From: a candidate division NC10 bacterium CSP1-5
Lineage (GTDB): Bacteria > Methylomirabilota > Methylomirabilia > Methylomirabilales > CSP1-5
Direction of reading: 5' to 3'
Length of the DNA: 64,000 bases
NCBI GenBank assembly: GCA_001443495.1
Contig: LDXR01000002.1
Coordinates: 1 to 64,000, forward strand
Shown piece after piece: positions 9,586 through 30,089 of the stretch (position 1 is the first letter of the stretch; every line of letters starts with the position of its first letter). The position numbers were made by a program, and so were the translations under genes. The notes beneath the pieces are model-generated. The model was given only the letters and a program-made list of their open reading frames with translations, was not told where the DNA came from and ran no database searches.

Positions 9586-9649
9586 CCAGCCCTACACAGG
9601 CGATCATGATTGAACCACGGTCTTCTACCCACAGGTGAGGAGAGAAAGG

Positions 9650-11002
9650 ATGGGGCAGCGGATCCTGGTTGCGGACGATGAAGGGGCATCCCGAAAGGGG
9701 TTGAAGGCGCTCCTTGCCAACTGGGGCTACGAGGTCGAGGAAGCTTCCAACGGGGAGGAAGCCCTCCAGAAGGCCGTTGCTTTCCTTCCCGCGGTCATCG
9801 TCGCCGATCTCGTCATGCCCGGACTCGATGGGCTGGGGCTCTTGAAGGGCCTCCAAGAGGAGTTACCCTTCGCCGCGGTCATCATCCTGACTGGCCACGG
9901 GACCATCGAGACGGCGGTGACCGCCATGAAGCAAGGGGCCTACGACTATCTGACAAAGCCGGTGGATGTCCCGCGGCTCAGGGTGCTCATTCGGCGGGCC
10001 CTCGAGAAGGGGGAAGCGCTCCGGGAGGTGACACTCCTGCGGCGGCGGCTGAAAGAGGTCTGGGGGTACGGGAAGCTGGTGGGCAAGGGCAAGGCGATGC
10101 AGGAGGTGTACCGGCTCATTGATCTCGCGGCTCCGACCTCAGCTCCGGTGCTGGTCTCGGGAGAGAGCGGGACGGGCAAGGAGCTGGTGGCGCACATCCT
10201 CCACGAGCTTTCCCCCCGGGGCCAACGGGCCTTCGTCGCCGTGAACTGCTCGGCCATCCCGGAGACGCTCTTAGAGAGCGAGATCTTCGGTCATGAGCGG
10301 GGGGCCTTTACCGGTGCCATGGAGCGGCGGATCGGCTGCTTTGAGCTGGCGCATGAGGGCACCATCTTCCTGGATGAGATCGCCGAGATGAGCCCGTCGA
10401 CCCAGGCGAAGTTCCTCCGGATCCTTGAGGACGGCACGGTGAGGCGCCTCGGGGGCAAGGCAGAGATCAAGGTCGATGTCCGGGTCCTGGCTGCCACCAA
10501 CAAGGACCCCCTGAAGGCGATTGCCGATGGGAACCTGAGGGAGGATCTCTACTACCGCCTGAACGTCTTTTCCCTCGCCCTTCCCCCTCTCCGCGAGCGG
10601 CGCGAGGACATCCCCCTGCTCCTCCAGGCGTTCATCGAGGAGTTGAACACCAAGTACGAGAAGCGGATCAAGGCGGTCGATGAAGCGGCGCTGCGAATCC
10701 TGATGCGATATCCCTGGCCGGGGAACGTCCGGGAGCTACGGAACACGGTCGAACGGGCGGTCATCGCCTGCAAGGCCGATCTCATCACGGCGCGACACCT
10801 CCCCCCCGGACTTACGAACAAGGCCAGGGATGAGGGCTCCGATTCCATCTCCGTCCCTCTCGGGATCACCCTCGAGGAGGCGGAGAAGAACCTCATCCGC
10901 AAGACGCTCGCCTCGGCGAACAATAACAAGACGAAGGCGGCCGAGATCCTCGGGATCAGCTTGAAGACTCTCCACAACAAGTTGCATCGCTACGGGGTGT
11001 AG
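9650..11002 (+). CDS. NtrC-family sigma-54-dependent response regulator
   Basis: A 450-residue transcriptional activator in three parts: receiver domain (phospho-acceptor Asp in IVADLVMPGLDG), AAA+ sigma-54 interaction domain, and a C-terminal Fis-type helix-turn-helix (AAEILGISLKTLHNKL). The AAA+ part has Walker A GESGTGKE and an intact GAFTGA loop, so it should contact sigma-54 RNA polymerase. The ATG at 9650 follows GAGAGAAAGG. The partner kinase starts 1 bp after the stop. Its targets are unknown; the -24/-12 promoters near 26-29 kb are candidates. Confidence 0.93.
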   Translation: MGQRILVADDEGASRKGLKALLANWGYEVEEASNGEEALQKAVAFLPAVIVADLVMPGLDGLGLLKGLQEELPFAAVIILTGHGTIETAVTAMKQGAYDYLTKPVDVPRLRVLIRRALEKGEALREVTLLRRRLKEVWGYGKLVGKGKAMQEVYRLIDLAAPTSAPVLVSGESGTGKELVAHILHELSPRGQRAFVAVNCSAIPETLLESEIFGHERGAFTGAMERRIGCFELAHEGTIFLDEIAEMSPSTQAKFLRILEDGTVRRLGGKAEIKVDVRVLAATNKDPLKAIADGNLREDLYYRLNVFSLALPPLRERREDIPLLLQAFIEELNTKYEKRIKAVDEAALRILMRYPWPGNVRELRNTVERAVIACKADLITARHLPPGLTNKARDEGSDSISVPLGITLEEAEKNLIRKTLASANNNKTKAAEILGISLKTLHNKLHRYGV

Positions 11003-11003
11003 G

Positions 11004-12818
11004 ATGTGGTTCGGGATCAAAGGAAAAGAGGTCCTGGCGATTACCCTGTTGACTGTTCTGGTGGTGGTCACCACCACCTTCATCCACCTCTCCTGGGTGA
11101 CCACTCTGGTGGTACAAGAGGCGATACGACAGGCGCAGCTGATCGCGAAGCAGCTCTACGCGCAAAGCAGCCGGTCGCTCTCCCGAGCCCGAGACGCGAA
11201 TCCCTCAGAGATCCTCAGGAGCGATCGGGAGCTTCGAAGCCTGCTTGATGCGAGCGTCGGATACTCGCCCAACCTCCTGTACGCGCTGATCGCCGACCAG
11301 AAGGGAACAATGATCTTCCACAGCGAGCGAGAGAAGGAGGGCACGCCCGCCCCCGAGCGGCCGAGCCTGGAGCACCTTCTCTCCCTCGATCCCATTGGGC
11401 GGTTCCACGCCCTGTACGAGGAGGGGAAAATTTATGAATCCAGACTGCCCCTGAGCCTCGACAACAGGCCCTTTGGGAGCATCCGTCTCGGGGTCGCCAC
11501 CAGTCTGTTGAGGAAGGAGCTGAACGTCTCTGTGCAAAAGAGCCTGGCCCTCGCCGGCCTAGCCCTGCCTGCGACCTGGCTCGTCGCTATGGGTGTTGGC
11601 GCCCTGATCCTGAAGCCGATGCGCAGGTTCACACGGGAGACGGAAGGGGGGAGGCGGAGTGACCTGAGCAGTGGCGGCAGCCTGGGCCAGGGAGACGAGA
11701 TTGGCGAACTGACCTCCCCGCTCCAGCTCCTTGGCCAGCAGCTTCAGCCGGACCGACTGAAACTCTTCAGCGAGAAGGCCGAGCTTCAACAGGTCGTCGA
11801 TCACCTGGAGGACGGGATCGTCCTCTTCACCCAGGATCGGCGAGTCCTTTTCTTCAATAAGGCCGCGGAGGTGGTTGTGGGGCGGCCCTTGGAAGAGGTC
11901 GTGGGATGGCCGTGGGATGACGTGCTGAGGCCTTTCCACCCTCTCCGCCCGCTGCTGCAGCACGCCTTTGAGCACCGGGCCAGCTTTCGGAATGCTGCCG
12001 TCACCATGCCTCGCGACGACGGCAACAAGGAATTCTTGGTCTCGCTCTTCTTCGTCACGGATCGCCACAGGGCGATGGGGGCCATGGTTGTTGTCAAGGA
12101 TCTCGAATCGATCAAGACGCTCCGGTCCTTGATCACCTACTCCGCCAAGCTGACGGCGCTTGGCAGGCTCACGTCGGGACTCGCCCATGAAGTCAAGAAC
12201 CCCCTGAATGCCATGATGATCCACCTCGAACTCCTGAGGGAAAAGCTCGACATGCCTGCCGACGAGGTTCAGCAGAGCCTCGAGGTCATCGGGAGCGAGA
12301 TCCGGCGGTTGGATAGGGTGGTGCATGGGTTCTTGAGGTTTATCCGGCCTGAAGAGCTGAGCCTGAGGCTGTTAGACCTGAGCACCCTCCTCAGAGACGT
12401 GGCGGCCCTCATGGAGACAGAGTGGCAGAAGGAGGGTGTCCGCTTCGCCTTCCAGTTGGACCCCACGCTTCCTCTCATTGCCGCTGACGAGGAGCTGCTG
12501 CGGCAGGCGTTCCTCAACATCCTGCTGAATGCCTGTCAAGCCATGCCGACCGGCGGCATCGTTCGCATTTCGACGGCGATGGAGCGGTGGGATTCTGTGA
12601 CGGTGAGCATCGCCGACACAGGGGTCGGGATCCCCCCTGATGATCTGGGGAAGATCTACCAGCTCTACTACACGACGAAGCCTCACGGAAGCGGTATCGG
12701 CCTCTCCTTGGTGTACCGGGTCGTCCAGATGCATAACGGCTCCATTGACGCCTCATCGGAGCTGGGCCGGGGGACCACCATGGTCGTCCGGCTTCCGGTA
12801 AGCCAGTCCCGTTCGTGA
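11004..12818 (+). CDS. Membrane sensor histidine kinase (periplasmic sensor-HAMP-PAS-HisKA-HATPase)
   Basis: A 604-residue sensor. Transmembrane segments are seen near residues 10-32 and 180-200, enclosing a periplasmic region of about 145 residues. A linker then leads to a PAS domain (about 250-370), a HisKA dimerisation domain with GLAHEVKNPLNAMM (phospho-acceptor His) and an ATPase domain (NILLNACQAM, DTGVGIPP, GSGIGLSL). It is encoded directly after the NtrC-type regulator and is almost certainly its cognate kinase. The ligand is unknown. Confidence 0.92.
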   Translation: MWFGIKGKEVLAITLLTVLVVVTTTFIHLSWVTTLVVQEAIRQAQLIAKQLYAQSSRSLSRARDANPSEILRSDRELRSLLDASVGYSPNLLYALIADQKGTMIFHSEREKEGTPAPERPSLEHLLSLDPIGRFHALYEEGKIYESRLPLSLDNRPFGSIRLGVATSLLRKELNVSVQKSLALAGLALPATWLVAMGVGALILKPMRRFTRETEGGRRSDLSSGGSLGQGDEIGELTSPLQLLGQQLQPDRLKLFSEKAELQQVVDHLEDGIVLFTQDRRVLFFNKAAEVVVGRPLEEVVGWPWDDVLRPFHPLRPLLQHAFEHRASFRNAAVTMPRDDGNKEFLVSLFFVTDRHRAMGAMVVVKDLESIKTLRSLITYSAKLTALGRLTSGLAHEVKNPLNAMMIHLELLREKLDMPADEVQQSLEVIGSEIRRLDRVVHGFLRFIRPEELSLRLLDLSTLLRDVAALMETEWQKEGVRFAFQLDPTLPLIAADEELLRQAFLNILLNACQAMPTGGIVRISTAMERWDSVTVSIADTGVGIPPDDLGKIYQLYYTTKPHGSGIGLSLVYRVVQMHNGSIDASSELGRGTTMVVRLPVSQSRS

Positions 12819-26331: not shown

Positions 26332-26347
26332 TGGCACGCTGCATGCA
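26332..26347 (+). promoter_or_regulatory. -24/-12 (sigma-54) promoter ahead of the pseudo-receiver gene
   Basis: TGGCACG-CTGC-ATGCA has GG and GC exactly 10 bp apart and a perfect -24 element; one base of the -12 TTGCA box deviates. It lies 150 bp before the ATG at 26497. The rest of 26227-26496 holds no gene. Confidence 0.5.
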
Positions 26348-26496
26348 CCATCTGCCCACCGAGAGGTTCGAGCGGCCCCTCTGGAGCAGAGAGGGTAGCC
26401 GAAGAGCATCCGGATGTGCTATTCTTGAGCCGCATCATGCCAATTGTCACCTAGACGGCCCTGCCCTCCTGAGGGTGTAAGGGAGGGAGATATCCC

Positions 26497-27282
26497 ATGC
26501 CAATGGTGCTGCTCGTTGACGCCGATCCAGACAGCAGCGCCCGCTTCGAGAAGGCGCTGCGGGCCGCGGGATACGAAGTCTCGGTGGCTCCGAGCGGCTC
26601 GCGCGCCCTGGCGATGTTGCGGCAGCGCCGACCAGATCTCATCATCAGCCAGGCTATGTTCGAAGACATGTATGGCTCGGAGTTCTGCACAGCGGTTCGC
26701 TCCGATCCTGCGACCAAAGAAATTATGTTCGTCCTCTTGGTCGATCGGACCTCACAGATGGCACACGCCACCCAGACTCAAGCGGATATGGTCCTCCCGG
26801 AAAACCTGCCCGTCTCCACCGTTGTGACTCGCATCGACACTCACCTGCGGCTTCGTGGCGTCCCGGGCCTTGGGCCGCCGCGCGTCCCGGATCCGAAGGC
26901 GGCCACGAAGCCCGGAGCGGCGGCAGCCGGGCCCACCCTCCAGGGTTCATTGGCGGTCATGGATCTGACGGAGGTGACCCAGGCCGTCTCCATCGGCAGA
27001 AAGACCGGGCGGCTCGTCCTCTCCTTAAAGGCCGGCCAGGGGGCAATCCTGTTTGACTCGGGTCGGGTCGTGCACGCTGAGTTCGCGGGAAAGACAGGAG
27101 AGGGAGCCTTTAACGCGCTCGTGGTGGCGTCCCATCGCGAGCGAGGCGGGTCCTTCTCCTTCGTTCCCGTCGCGGCCGGAGACGCGTCGCAGCTTCCGAG
27201 CACCATTCAGACAGACCTGGAGACCCTGCTCCTCAACATCGCCGTCGAGATGGACGAGAGTCAGCGGGATACGCGGAACTGA
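26497..27282 (+). CDS. Pseudo-receiver-DUF4388 protein
   Basis: A 261-residue protein. Residues 1-120 fold as a receiver (VLLVDADPDS keeps the acidic pocket), but the phospho-acceptor position reads Gln (DLIISQAMFEDMYG), so it is probably not phosphorylated. A Pro/Ala linker leads to a C-terminal DUF4388 (PatA-N-like) domain, LQGSLAVMDLTEVTQAVSI...GRLVL. Such proteins occur around gliding, pilus and c-di-GMP systems. GGGAGGGA at 26481-26488 supports the ATG. It heads a cluster with two PilZ genes. Confidence 0.75.
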   Translation: MPMVLLVDADPDSSARFEKALRAAGYEVSVAPSGSRALAMLRQRRPDLIISQAMFEDMYGSEFCTAVRSDPATKEIMFVLLVDRTSQMAHATQTQADMVLPENLPVSTVVTRIDTHLRLRGVPGLGPPRVPDPKAATKPGAAAAGPTLQGSLAVMDLTEVTQAVSIGRKTGRLVLSLKAGQGAILFDSGRVVHAEFAGKTGEGAFNALVVASHRERGGSFSFVPVAAGDASQLPSTIQTDLETLLLNIAVEMDESQRDTRN

Positions 27283-27413
27283 CCCGAGGGGGCGATCGCG
27301 TCCACATCTCCGTCACCACAAGTATCCGAGCCTGAGAGATCCTTGGTCTGAAATCACGCCCCAGGAGGCCCCCGCCTTTCACAGGGGAGGCTGGACTGCG
27401 GCAGTGGCCCAGG

Positions 27414-27429
27414 TGGCAACATAATTGCA
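27414..27429 (+). promoter_or_regulatory. -24/-12 (sigma-54) promoter ahead of the PilZ genes
   Basis: TGGCAAC-ATAA-TTGCA has the exact GG-N10-GC spacing and differs from the TGGCAC-N5-TTGCA consensus at one position. It lies about 60 bp upstream of the first PilZ start, in a 207-bp gap with no other gene. Confidence 0.6.
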
Positions 27430-27489
27430 TAGATGGTCGATACTCCGAGGGCAGGCGGGGCCGTGAGTTGAGGTAAGAAGGGGTCAGCG

Positions 27490-27870
27490 GTGAGGGTCAT
27501 CACAAAGGCACACCGGAGACGAGCTCCGCGCGCGAACCTCCAGAAGCGGAAGCCTCCGCGCTTTCGCGTTTCCGGGGTCACTGCGGCGATCACAGCGCTC
27601 CAGGAGGCCGAGGTGCTCGATCTCAGTCTGGAGGGAGCGCTTGTCGAGCATCAGGGCATGCTTCCCCTTGGAAGCCCCTGCTTCCTCCAGCTAGAGATCG
27701 ACGATCAGCGCATGGCGGTCGAGTGCCGCGTGGTGCACAGCCGTGTGAGCCGCAGGGGGGGAGGGGGTGCCCTGTACTATGAGACCGGGCTGCAGTTCTG
27801 CCACCTGTCCCGGGGGGCCGAGCAATCACTGGGGGCGCTCATCCGCTCCTACGGGGCCACCGAGGGTTAA
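27490..27870 (+). CDS. PilZ-domain protein (single domain)
   Basis: A 126-residue predicted c-di-GMP receptor. The basic N-terminus leads into an RxxxR-like segment (RKPPRFRVS) and the second PilZ motif DLSLEGALVE (D/NxSxxG). A VECRVVHSR strand and YETGLQF follow, as expected for the PilZ barrel. The GTG start at 27490 has a purine-rich AAGAAGGGG upstream. It is placed behind a sigma-54-type promoter and before a second PilZ gene. Confidence 0.75.
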   Translation: MRVITKAHRRRAPRANLQKRKPPRFRVSGVTAAITALQEAEVLDLSLEGALVEHQGMLPLGSPCFLQLEIDDQRMAVECRVVHSRVSRRGGGGALYYETGLQFCHLSRGAEQSLGALIRSYGATEG

Positions 27871-27926
27871 CAGCTATGGACGCCTCGGGACGGCATGGGA
27901 GGCAGCGAAAGGGGTAAGGAGCTCTG

Positions 27927-28718
27927 GTGGCAAGACGAAGGAAACGCGTTAAGAACTGGTTTAACCGCGAGTCCGCTCCCGAAGGGGTGCAGCCGCAAGC
28001 GTCCGTGGAGACGCCACCGGGGGTCGAAGCGGAATCGGCCCACCCAGTGCCGGACGAGGTCCGGACAGAGCCACCGGTAGAGGCACCCGAGGCGGGGTTG
28101 GAAGTCCCACTCGTCGCCGAAGTGTCAGACGGGGGTGAGCCGCAATCGGCCGCTCACGAGCCGGAGGCGGTCGAAATCCAGGTCTCCGCAGAAGCAGCCG
28201 GGGAGGTCGAGGTTCAACTCCCCCCCGAGGCCCCCGAGGAGCCTATTGTGCAGTTCGTCGCCCAGGCGCCCCCCGAAATCGAGGCACAGGCGGCGGCAGA
28301 GGCGTCCCCCGAGATTGAGACGCTGCTTACCCCGGAGCAAGAGGCCGACCTCCGAGACCAGAAGTCGGCGACGCGGCGGCAGTACGCCCGGTTCCTCGTG
28401 GGCGGAAAGGCCAAGGGCCGGGTCACGGCCATCTATGATGCAGTGGTCGTGAACCTCAGTATAGGGGGTTCGCTGATCGAACATGCCCATGTGGTCCGCC
28501 CGGGCACCCTCTCCTCCTTAGACCTTGACCTGTTCGGAAAGCGACTGCGGCTCAAGTGCCGCGTAGCCCGGTCGGTGGTCCACGGGTCACACGTGCTGCC
28601 CACTGGGGAGCGCGAACTGATTTACCGCACCGGACTAGAGTTTCTCGAGCTGTCTGAAGCGACGCGCCAGGTGATCGGAAGATATATCCAGTCCATGACG
28701 AACGAAGAGCCTCACTAA
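27927..28718 (+). CDS. PilZ-domain protein with long acidic Pro/Glu/Val-rich N-terminus
   Basis: 263 residues. Residues 1-12 are strongly basic (MARRRKRVKNW). Residues ~15-140 are a low-complexity acidic tether rich in Pro, Glu, Ala and Val (PEAPEEPIVQF, APPEIEAQAAAEASPEIE). Residues ~145-255 form a PilZ domain with RRQYARF and VNLSIGGSLIE motifs. The tether may place the c-di-GMP sensor at a distance from an anchoring site. The GTG at 27927 follows AAGGAG. It is probably co-transcribed with the preceding PilZ gene. The partner is unknown. Confidence 0.75.
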   Translation: MARRRKRVKNWFNRESAPEGVQPQASVETPPGVEAESAHPVPDEVRTEPPVEAPEAGLEVPLVAEVSDGGEPQSAAHEPEAVEIQVSAEAAGEVEVQLPPEAPEEPIVQFVAQAPPEIEAQAAAEASPEIETLLTPEQEADLRDQKSATRRQYARFLVGGKAKGRVTAIYDAVVVNLSIGGSLIEHAHVVRPGTLSSLDLDLFGKRLRLKCRVARSVVHGSHVLPTGERELIYRTGLEFLELSEATRQVIGRYIQSMTNEEPH

Positions 28719-28875
28719 GCTGCCACCTCGCCCGCGGCACAGCACGCCTCTCCGAAGCACCTTTCGCTGCCGACGCAGCACGAGGCCTCCTGCCAGTGAG
28801 GGGTTGGTGCGCGGCTTGCGTCGGAAACTCCTTGTCAACGCGACCCTTTAGCGCTACAAGGCGAATGAGGAGAGC

Positions 28876-28970
28876 TGGCGGAGGCGTGTGGGAATCGAAC
28901 CCACCGGCCCGCTTTTGGCAGGCCCTCCGGTTTTGAAGACCGGGAGAGCCACCAGACCCATTCCGCCTCC
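28876..28970 (-). tRNA. selC: Selenocysteine tRNA, anticodon UCA
   Basis: A 95-nt tRNA with encoded CCA, the same length as E. coli selC. The acceptor stem GGAGGCG pairs with CGCCTCC. The anticodon arm CCGGU-CUUCAAA-ACCGG carries UCA. There is a long extra arm (GGCCUGC-CAAAA-GCGGGCC, 7 bp) and a T-arm GUGGG-UUCGAUU-CCCAC. The possible eighth acceptor pair, typical of tRNA-Sec, is a G-A mismatch here. An inverted repeat (CCGACGCA/TGCGTCGG at 28770-28777 and 28817-28824) lies downstream. It decodes the UGA in fdhA. Confidence 0.95.
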
Positions 28971-29041
28971 ACCTCCGGAGAGCCAAGTGTAACAGTTGCG
29001 CGCTGCCGTGCGCAAGTCTCCCCGGAGAGGGTGTCCAGGTG

Positions 29042-29057
29042 TGGAACGGCTCTTGCA
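29042..29057 (+). promoter_or_regulatory. -24/-12 (sigma-54) promoter ahead of the HD-GYP gene
   Basis: TGGAACG-GCTC-TTGCA keeps GG-N10-GC and the full TTGCA box. The predicted start near 29068 leaves a very short leader containing GGAGAGGG (29069-29076) before the ATG at 29082. Confidence 0.5.
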
Positions 29058-29081
29058 ATTTCTCCCCCGGAGAGGGCGCCA

Positions 29082-30089
29082 ATGAGGGGTCTGTCCGAGG
29101 AACGACAGCCTCGCATCCTGGTGGTGGATGATCAGGAGGAGAATCTGAACCTCCTGGAGGCCTTTCTCACCGTCCACGACTACCAGGTCATCCGGGCGAG
29201 AGATGGTCGGGAGGCCCTGGCCCAGGTGGCCCAGGCGCCCCCTGACCTGATCCTCCTCGATACACACATGCCGCCGCCGGACGGCTTTGAGGTCTGCAAA
29301 CAACTCAAACAGCGCGAGGAGACCCGGCTGATCCCGATCATCATCGTGACGACCGCCGGGGAACTGGAGAGCCGGGTCCGGGGAATCGAGGCCGGCGCCG
29401 ACGATTTCTTGACGAAACCGGTCCACCGGGTGGAACTGGATGCCCGGGTCCGCTCCCTCCTGAAGCTCAAGCAGTATACCGATGAGCTGGAAAACGTGGA
29501 GGCGGTTCTGGTCAGTCTGGCCCTGGCCGTTGAGGCGAAGGATCCTTCAACCCATGGGCACTGTGAACGGCTGTCCGATTACGCCGTCCAGCTCGGGCAG
29601 CAGCTCGGCCTCCCCTCTGATCATCTCAGGGCCCTCCGTCGGGCCGGATATCTGCACGATCTCGGCAAGATCGCTGTTCCCGAGGCGATCCTCCTGAAGC
29701 CAGGTCCTCTGACGCCGGAAGAGGCGAGCATCATGCGGCTGCATCCGGTGGTCGGCGAGCGGATCTGTCGACCCCTGCGATCGCTGCGGCTGGTCCTTCC
29801 GATCATTCGCCACCACCACGAGCGGTGGGATGGAAGCGGGTATCCGGACGGTCTCGCGGGCGAGTCCATCCCGCTCACCGCCAGAATCCTGCAGATCGTC
29901 GACGTGTTCGATGCGTTGGTCGTGGACCGTCCCTATCGGGCCAGTCTCTCGCATGCCGACGCCACGCAGGTGTTGCAGGAGGAAGCCAGGAAGGGATGGT
30001 ACGATCCGGGCGTGGTGGCCGAATTCCTCGGGTTCCTCAACAGCAACGGGGGATCGTTACAGGCCGGGTCAGCGGCCATCGTGAGGTAG
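29082..30089 (+). CDS. Response regulator with HD-GYP c-di-GMP phosphodiesterase output
   Basis: 335 residues. The receiver domain (ILVVDDQEENLNLLEAF, phospho-acceptor in LILLDTHMPPPDG) is fused to an HD-GYP domain with HGHCERLSDYA, YLHDLGKIAVP, RHHHERWDGSGYPDGL and DVFDALV. The metal-binding and GYP residues are intact, so it should degrade c-di-GMP. The ATG at 29082 is preferred over an upstream frame extension because it gives a standard receiver start. Its 3' end overlaps convergent lon by 21 bp. It closes the c-di-GMP cluster with the two PilZ proteins. Confidence 0.9.
   Translation: MRGLSEERQPRILVVDDQEENLNLLEAFLTVHDYQVIRARDGREALAQVAQAPPDLILLDTHMPPPDGFEVCKQLKQREETRLIPIIIVTTAGELESRVRGIEAGADDFLTKPVHRVELDARVRSLLKLKQYTDELENVEAVLVSLALAVEAKDPSTHGHCERLSDYAVQLGQQLGLPSDHLRALRRAGYLHDLGKIAVPEAILLKPGPLTPEEASIMRLHPVVGERICRPLRSLRLVLPIIRHHHERWDGSGYPDGLAGESIPLTARILQIVDVFDALVVDRPYRASLSHADATQVLQEEARKGWYDPGVVAEFLGFLNSNGGSLQAGSAAIVR

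Follow-up and report, generated by a model that had tools for sequence, protein, structure and literature searches.

Putative sigma-54 promoters upstream of DUF4388, PilZ and HD-GYP genes in a candidate division NC10 bacterium

Genes and sigma-54-like boxes of the locus

The window, by which we mean the whole 64-kb stretch of DNA that was analysed, contains a group of plus-strand genes for regulatory proteins. The first encodes a response regulator of 261 residues (Rec-DUF4388; ATG start, 26497..27282, + strand), in which Pfam identifies Response_reg and DUF4388 and no domain that makes, breaks or binds c-di-GMP. We take DUF4388 to be the PATAN-type domain that occurs in response regulators of type IV pili. 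Orthologues with 62-76% identity were present in five of the six congeners examined. In plasmid records, similarity to the protein was confined to the receiver domain.

Further downstream on the same strand lie two PilZ genes. PilZ gene 1 (GTG start, 27490..27870, + strand) encodes a protein of 126 residues with a Pfam PilZ domain containing the motifs RxxxR and DLSLEG. It is followed after 56 bp by PilZ gene 2 (27927..28718, + strand), whose product of 263 residues has a C-terminal PilZ domain with RxxxR and NLSIGG. Both domains keep the c-di-GMP motifs RxxxR and [DN]xSxxG, and the proteins are predicted to be c-di-GMP receptors. The N-terminal half of the second protein (27927-28320) is variable, acidic and rich in proline and alanine, and its length differs among relatives.

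The last gene of the group (ATG start, 29082..30089, + strand) encodes a protein of 335 residues with the Pfam domains Response_reg and HD_5 (Rec-HD-GYP). It is of the c-di-GMP phosphodiesterase type, and inspection of its sequence revealed the catalytic motifs LHDLGK and HHERWDGSGYP (pattern HD, HHExxDGxGYP). The GTG at 29031 given in the raw list of open reading frames is an unlikely start; the similarity of relatives begins at 29082. A selenocysteine tRNA gene (tRNA-Sec, anticodon UCA, 28876..28970, - strand; ARAGORN, Rfam RF01852) is divergent from the HD-GYP gene, and the two have a 111-bp promoter region (28971-29081) in common. At its other end, the HD-GYP gene shares its last 21 bp (30069-30089) with the 3' end of lon, a convergent gene, and this neighbourhood is kept in the relatives G001 and L135.

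The initial annotation had described three sigma-54 promoter matches ahead of the DUF4388, PilZ and HD-GYP genes. When the letters were rechecked, all three were found as quoted on the plus strand, each with GG-N10-GC, and each in the coding direction of the gene that follows. Box 1, TGGCACGCTGCATGCA (26332..26347, + strand), ends 149 bp upstream of the start codon of the Rec-DUF4388 gene; box 2, TGGCAACATAATTGCA (27414..27429, + strand), ends 60 bp upstream of that of PilZ gene 1; and box 3, TGGAACGGCTCTTGCA (29042..29057, + strand), ends 24 bp upstream of that of the Rec-HD-GYP gene. They deviate from TGGCAYR-N4-TTGCW by one, two and one mismatches, respectively. PilZ gene 2 has no box of its own here and is probably read from box 2.

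A scan of all positions on both strands with a consensus-based matrix placed boxes 3 (17.7 bits), 1 (16.5 bits) and 2 (14.1 bits), in this order, at the top of the window, followed by a site of 12.7 bits. This main matrix only approximates the published sigma-54 consensus; an independent second matrix, built solely from eleven boxes beside activator genes elsewhere in the genome, again ranked the three boxes 1 to 3. As a background estimate, ten first-order resamplings of the window contained 0-2 sites of at least 14 bits. The bare GG-N10-GC pattern was rejected as evidence, since with 1,143 matches in the window it is far too common. Given the raised density of sites in this genome, a group of three co-directional sites within 2.7 kb would arise by chance about 0.13 times per genome, so that the cluster by itself is only suggestive; the case is made by conservation and by the association with PilZ genes.

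No sigma-70-like promoter match was found on the plus strand of the region, and no c-di-GMP riboswitch was found in the leaders. A match to mir-671 scored below the gathering cut-off and was dismissed as spurious. Beside box 3 lies a conserved stretch that may be the sigma-70 promoter of the tRNA-Sec gene (TTGCGC, 17 bp, TTACAC; minus strand). Box 3 is preceded by an inverted repeat, TTGCGC-N8-GCGCAA (28996-29015). The left arm of this repeat is not kept in G001, G002 or L135, and it is therefore probably not an activator site.

Sigma-54 machinery and conservation of the boxes

Judged by the HD-GYP gene, the closest named relatives belong to NC10/Methylomirabilota. The genome (2.77 Mb, 99.7% complete) contains one rpoN gene (E=1.9e-63) with an intact RpoN box, ARRTVAKYR. 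It also encodes about 13 activators of the bEBP type, mostly of Rec-AAA-HTH architecture and most with GAFTGA or GSFTGA. Directly 3' of the full-length bEBP genes outside the window, a co-directional box of at least 14 bits was found in eight of twelve cases, which provides a positive control for the matrix.

An NtrC-type activator with its kinase had been reported about 16 kb upstream of the boxes. The pair exists: the activator (Rec-AAA-HTH with GAFTGA; 9635..11002, + strand) is paired with a sensor histidine kinase of sCache-PAS-HisKA-HATPase architecture (11004..12818, + strand). A role at the three promoters finds no support: the activator is one of about 13 of its type, no box of at least 13 bits lies beside its gene, and nothing links the pair to these promoters. 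Judged by position only, the nearest activator candidate would be a truncated PAS-type bEBP (G000:C5:1-766). This PAS-AAA gene (L263:1-766, - strand) is cut by the contig end. It adjoins a PilZ gene that is boxed, and a small boxed gene whose family is unknown is also found in this neighbourhood (L263:1828, + strand). The start of contig C19 may hold the other half of the truncated gene. A search for an activator site common to the PilZ promoters gave no dyad above shuffled controls, which we count against the explanation we prefer; activator sites may be degenerate or far away, or may be missing altogether. Among the activators here, none was recognised as binding c-di-GMP.

Comparison with relatives bore out the conservation that would be expected of functional boxes, the flanks having diverged, with two exceptions: G001 for box 2, and L135 (apparently a G004 contig) for box 3. 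All three boxes are kept in G002, box 3 without any change. Box 1 is kept before the Rec-DUF4388 orthologue in G001, G002, G003 and G004, and has its last base changed in G006. Box 2 is kept in G002 and L135 and weakened to TGGCCGCATATTTGCA in G001. Box 3 reads TGGAACGGCATTTGCA in G001, and its -12 G is lost in L135. The weakened box 2 and the lost G count against the explanation we prefer, though other boxes are present in these relatives. A box of 16.8 bits also precedes a more distant homologue of the HD-GYP gene (L136, 62% identity). In several promoter alignments, those of orthologous PilZ promoters included, the box is the main conserved block, and the PilZ promoter alignments show no second one.

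In G001 and L135, PilZ gene 2 has a box of its own. This box, TGGCATGGTTCCTGCT, lies in a stretch inserted before the gene (L070 of G001, and L135:1333), and a block of 23 bases around it is identical in both. In G001 it accompanies the weakened box 2, as if control had moved.

Genome-wide association with PilZ genes

Across the genome, the core pattern TGGMAN6WTGCA occurs 41 times, as against 9 times for its reversed control. Intergenic positions account for 36 of these sites, 33 of which are followed by a gene that runs in the direction of the box. The genes downstream encode PilZ, Rec-PilZ, receiver-domain, pilin-like, cyclic-nucleotide-binding and metabolic proteins.

The PilZ family of the genome is very large, with 29 domains in 24 genes, and both c-di-GMP motifs are present in 23 of the domains. 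The genome further has four GGDEF, four HD-GYP and three DUF4388 genes. We counted a gene as boxed if a site of at least 14 bits lay within 300 bp upstream, and used as controls 202 genes from ten arbitrary 20-kb stretches and the window. By this definition, 14 of 24 PilZ genes were boxed, compared to 5 of 202 controls (Fisher p=2.6e-12). Operon structure was excluded as the reason for the scarcity of boxed controls by restriction to genes with intergenic room: the fraction was still only 5/107 for controls with an upstream gap of at least 80 bp (p=6e-9 against the PilZ genes). The enrichment was the same with the matrix derived from bEBP-adjacent boxes and with simple mismatch counts. When the opposite strand of the regions ahead of the PilZ genes was scored, a box was present in only 2 of 24 cases. 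In congeneric genomes, 15 of the 25 PilZ genes examined were boxed. The flanks of the PilZ promoters showed no similarity to one another, which argues that the boxes were not simply copied together with the genes by duplication. Ten of the 24 PilZ genes, three of the four HD-GYP genes and three of the four GGDEF genes are without a box, and we count this against the explanation given below.

Interpretation and relation to known systems

Taken as a whole, the explanation that we consider very probable is that the boxes are -24/-12 promoters for sigma-54 RNA polymerase, and that the locus belongs to a sigma-54 regulon specific to the genus, whose boxed members comprise most PilZ genes as well as some genes of pilin-like, receiver-domain and other kinds. 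The position, quality and conservation of the boxes, the presence of rpoN and bEBPs, and the PilZ enrichment all count in its favour. From the sequence data we infer transcription from the boxes. RpoN holoenzyme would be held closed on each box until a signal-activated bEBP hydrolyses ATP and the promoter opens; opening would switch on the Rec-DUF4388 regulator, the two PilZ c-di-GMP receptors and the Rec-HD-GYP phosphodiesterase. Production of c-di-GMP receptors would in this way be gated by RpoN together with one or more bEBPs. In our best reading, PilZ receptors would be the clearest target class of the regulon, next to Rec-DUF4388, Rec-HD-GYP and pilin-like genes, and much of what the cell does in response to c-di-GMP seems to be under the control of one sigma factor. 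The accompanying PATAN-type and pilin-like genes suggest that the output is probably type IV pilus or surface behaviour. The sigma-54 link to c-di-GMP genes of the initial annotation is thereby supported: rpoN, the conserved boxes and the PilZ enrichment speak for it, with the reservations that DUF4388 does not qualify as a c-di-GMP domain and that the genes may not form one unit under a common activator.

The boxes could be true sigma-54 promoters without forming a single c-di-GMP regulon, if different bEBPs served the individual genes and the PilZ genes were boxed as a result of a broad use of sigma-54 at regulatory and surface genes in this lineage. We regard this as a serious possibility, somewhat short of an even chance. 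The genome has about 13 bEBPs, many with an adjacent box of their own, the PilZ promoters have no common upstream site, and boxes also precede metabolic genes and others of unrelated type, all of which fits such a division of labour. It sits less well with the fact that PilZ genes are boxed far more often than other genes with intergenic room, and with the placement of the three boxes before adjacent genes.

RpoN could also bind the boxes while a sigma-70 family polymerase carries out the main transcription, so that the boxes would be silent or act as roadblocks. Binding of RpoN at silent or roadblock sites is known from other bacteria, it is common for genes to have more than one promoter, and transcripts of the LysR gene may read through into Rec-DUF4388. 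Nevertheless, the lack of a sigma-70-like match on the plus strand, and the intergenic placement of the boxes at promoter distance, in the coding direction and conserved there, make this improbable. Least of all do we expect chance matches in a GC-rich genome, picked after the fact. GG-N10-GC alone is indeed very common, and the three-box cluster has a chance expectation of about 0.13 per genome; yet the conservation of the boxes in relatives contradicts such an origin, the core pattern is enriched 41:9, and the PilZ enrichment does not rest on the three boxes.

The sigma-54 regulon proposed here can be compared to several known systems. Francke et al. (2011; PMC3162934) described sigma-54 regulons as controllers of the cell exterior and linked one activator group to the c-di-GMP response. 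The boxes in their survey, like those here, are of the -24/-12 type, go together with RpoN and bEBPs, and lie ahead of genes with regulatory or surface-related roles; the survey does not mention PilZ, whereas here PilZ genes appear to be the clearest targets, with an expansion confined to one genus. In Pseudomonas putida, transcription of flgZ, which like the genes here encodes a PilZ (YcgR-like) c-di-GMP receptor with an RpoN link, is partly RpoN-dependent, with contributions of sigma-54 and FliA (PMC6093933). There, one flagellar gene is reached by read-through, whereas here many PilZ genes have boxes of their own and the locus has no adjacent flagellar gene. RpoN and a bEBP connect c-di-GMP to gene expression in the berA/BerB system of Burkholderia cenocepacia (PMC5552954); that bEBP binds c-di-GMP and drives an exopolysaccharide regulator, whereas the boxed genes here encode receptors. 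Geobacter sulfurreducens is an environmental bacterium with a similarly large sigma-54 regulon, and the main text of the paper describing it (PMC2725144) does not mention PilZ, GGDEF or HD-GYP. Single PilZ or c-di-GMP-linked genes under RpoN are thus already known (FlgZ, BerA/BerB), and what is new is a putative regulon with PilZ as its clearest target class. We found no paper on a sigma-54-PilZ link in NC10 bacteria in the literature outside most subscription journals.

For the Rec-DUF4388 protein, the closest parallels are the cyanobacterial PATAN-Rec regulators PixG and TaxP2, in which, according to the work cited in PMC10519157, PATAN contacts the pilus motor PilB. The combination of a receiver with a PATAN-type domain is shared with these proteins as they are presented there. 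The domain order (receiver first here) and the organism differ.

Control by c-di-GMP is usually studied via the enzymes that make or break the messenger. Here, the switch seems to act on the receptors themselves, through one sigma factor, and the genome has 24 PilZ genes as against only four for GGDEF proteins. The predicted regulon is concrete and testable for uncultured NC10 bacteria, and would offer a natural example of a receptor family in which promoters were gained repeatedly.

Among the genomes searched, 39 of 41 contain rpoN. A clear excess of the core pattern over its reversed control was confined to this genus; family f3 showed a smaller excess. In G013, G026 and G040, which represent other families, no boxes were found before PilZ genes except for one weak match, despite the presence of rpoN. 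These three have 3-12 PilZ domains each, compared to 11-70 per genome in the genus, a range that takes in partial genomes. The genus is marked both by site enrichment and by PilZ expansion. We see about equal chances for and against the idea that, as the family expanded in this NC10 genus, PilZ genes acquired sigma-54 promoters repeatedly and independently, in which case the sigma factor would decide on c-di-GMP responsiveness above the level of the messenger. The range is wide, with up to 70 PilZ domains in the 2.8 Mb of G006, 29 in the genome studied here, and 3 in G026 of another family.
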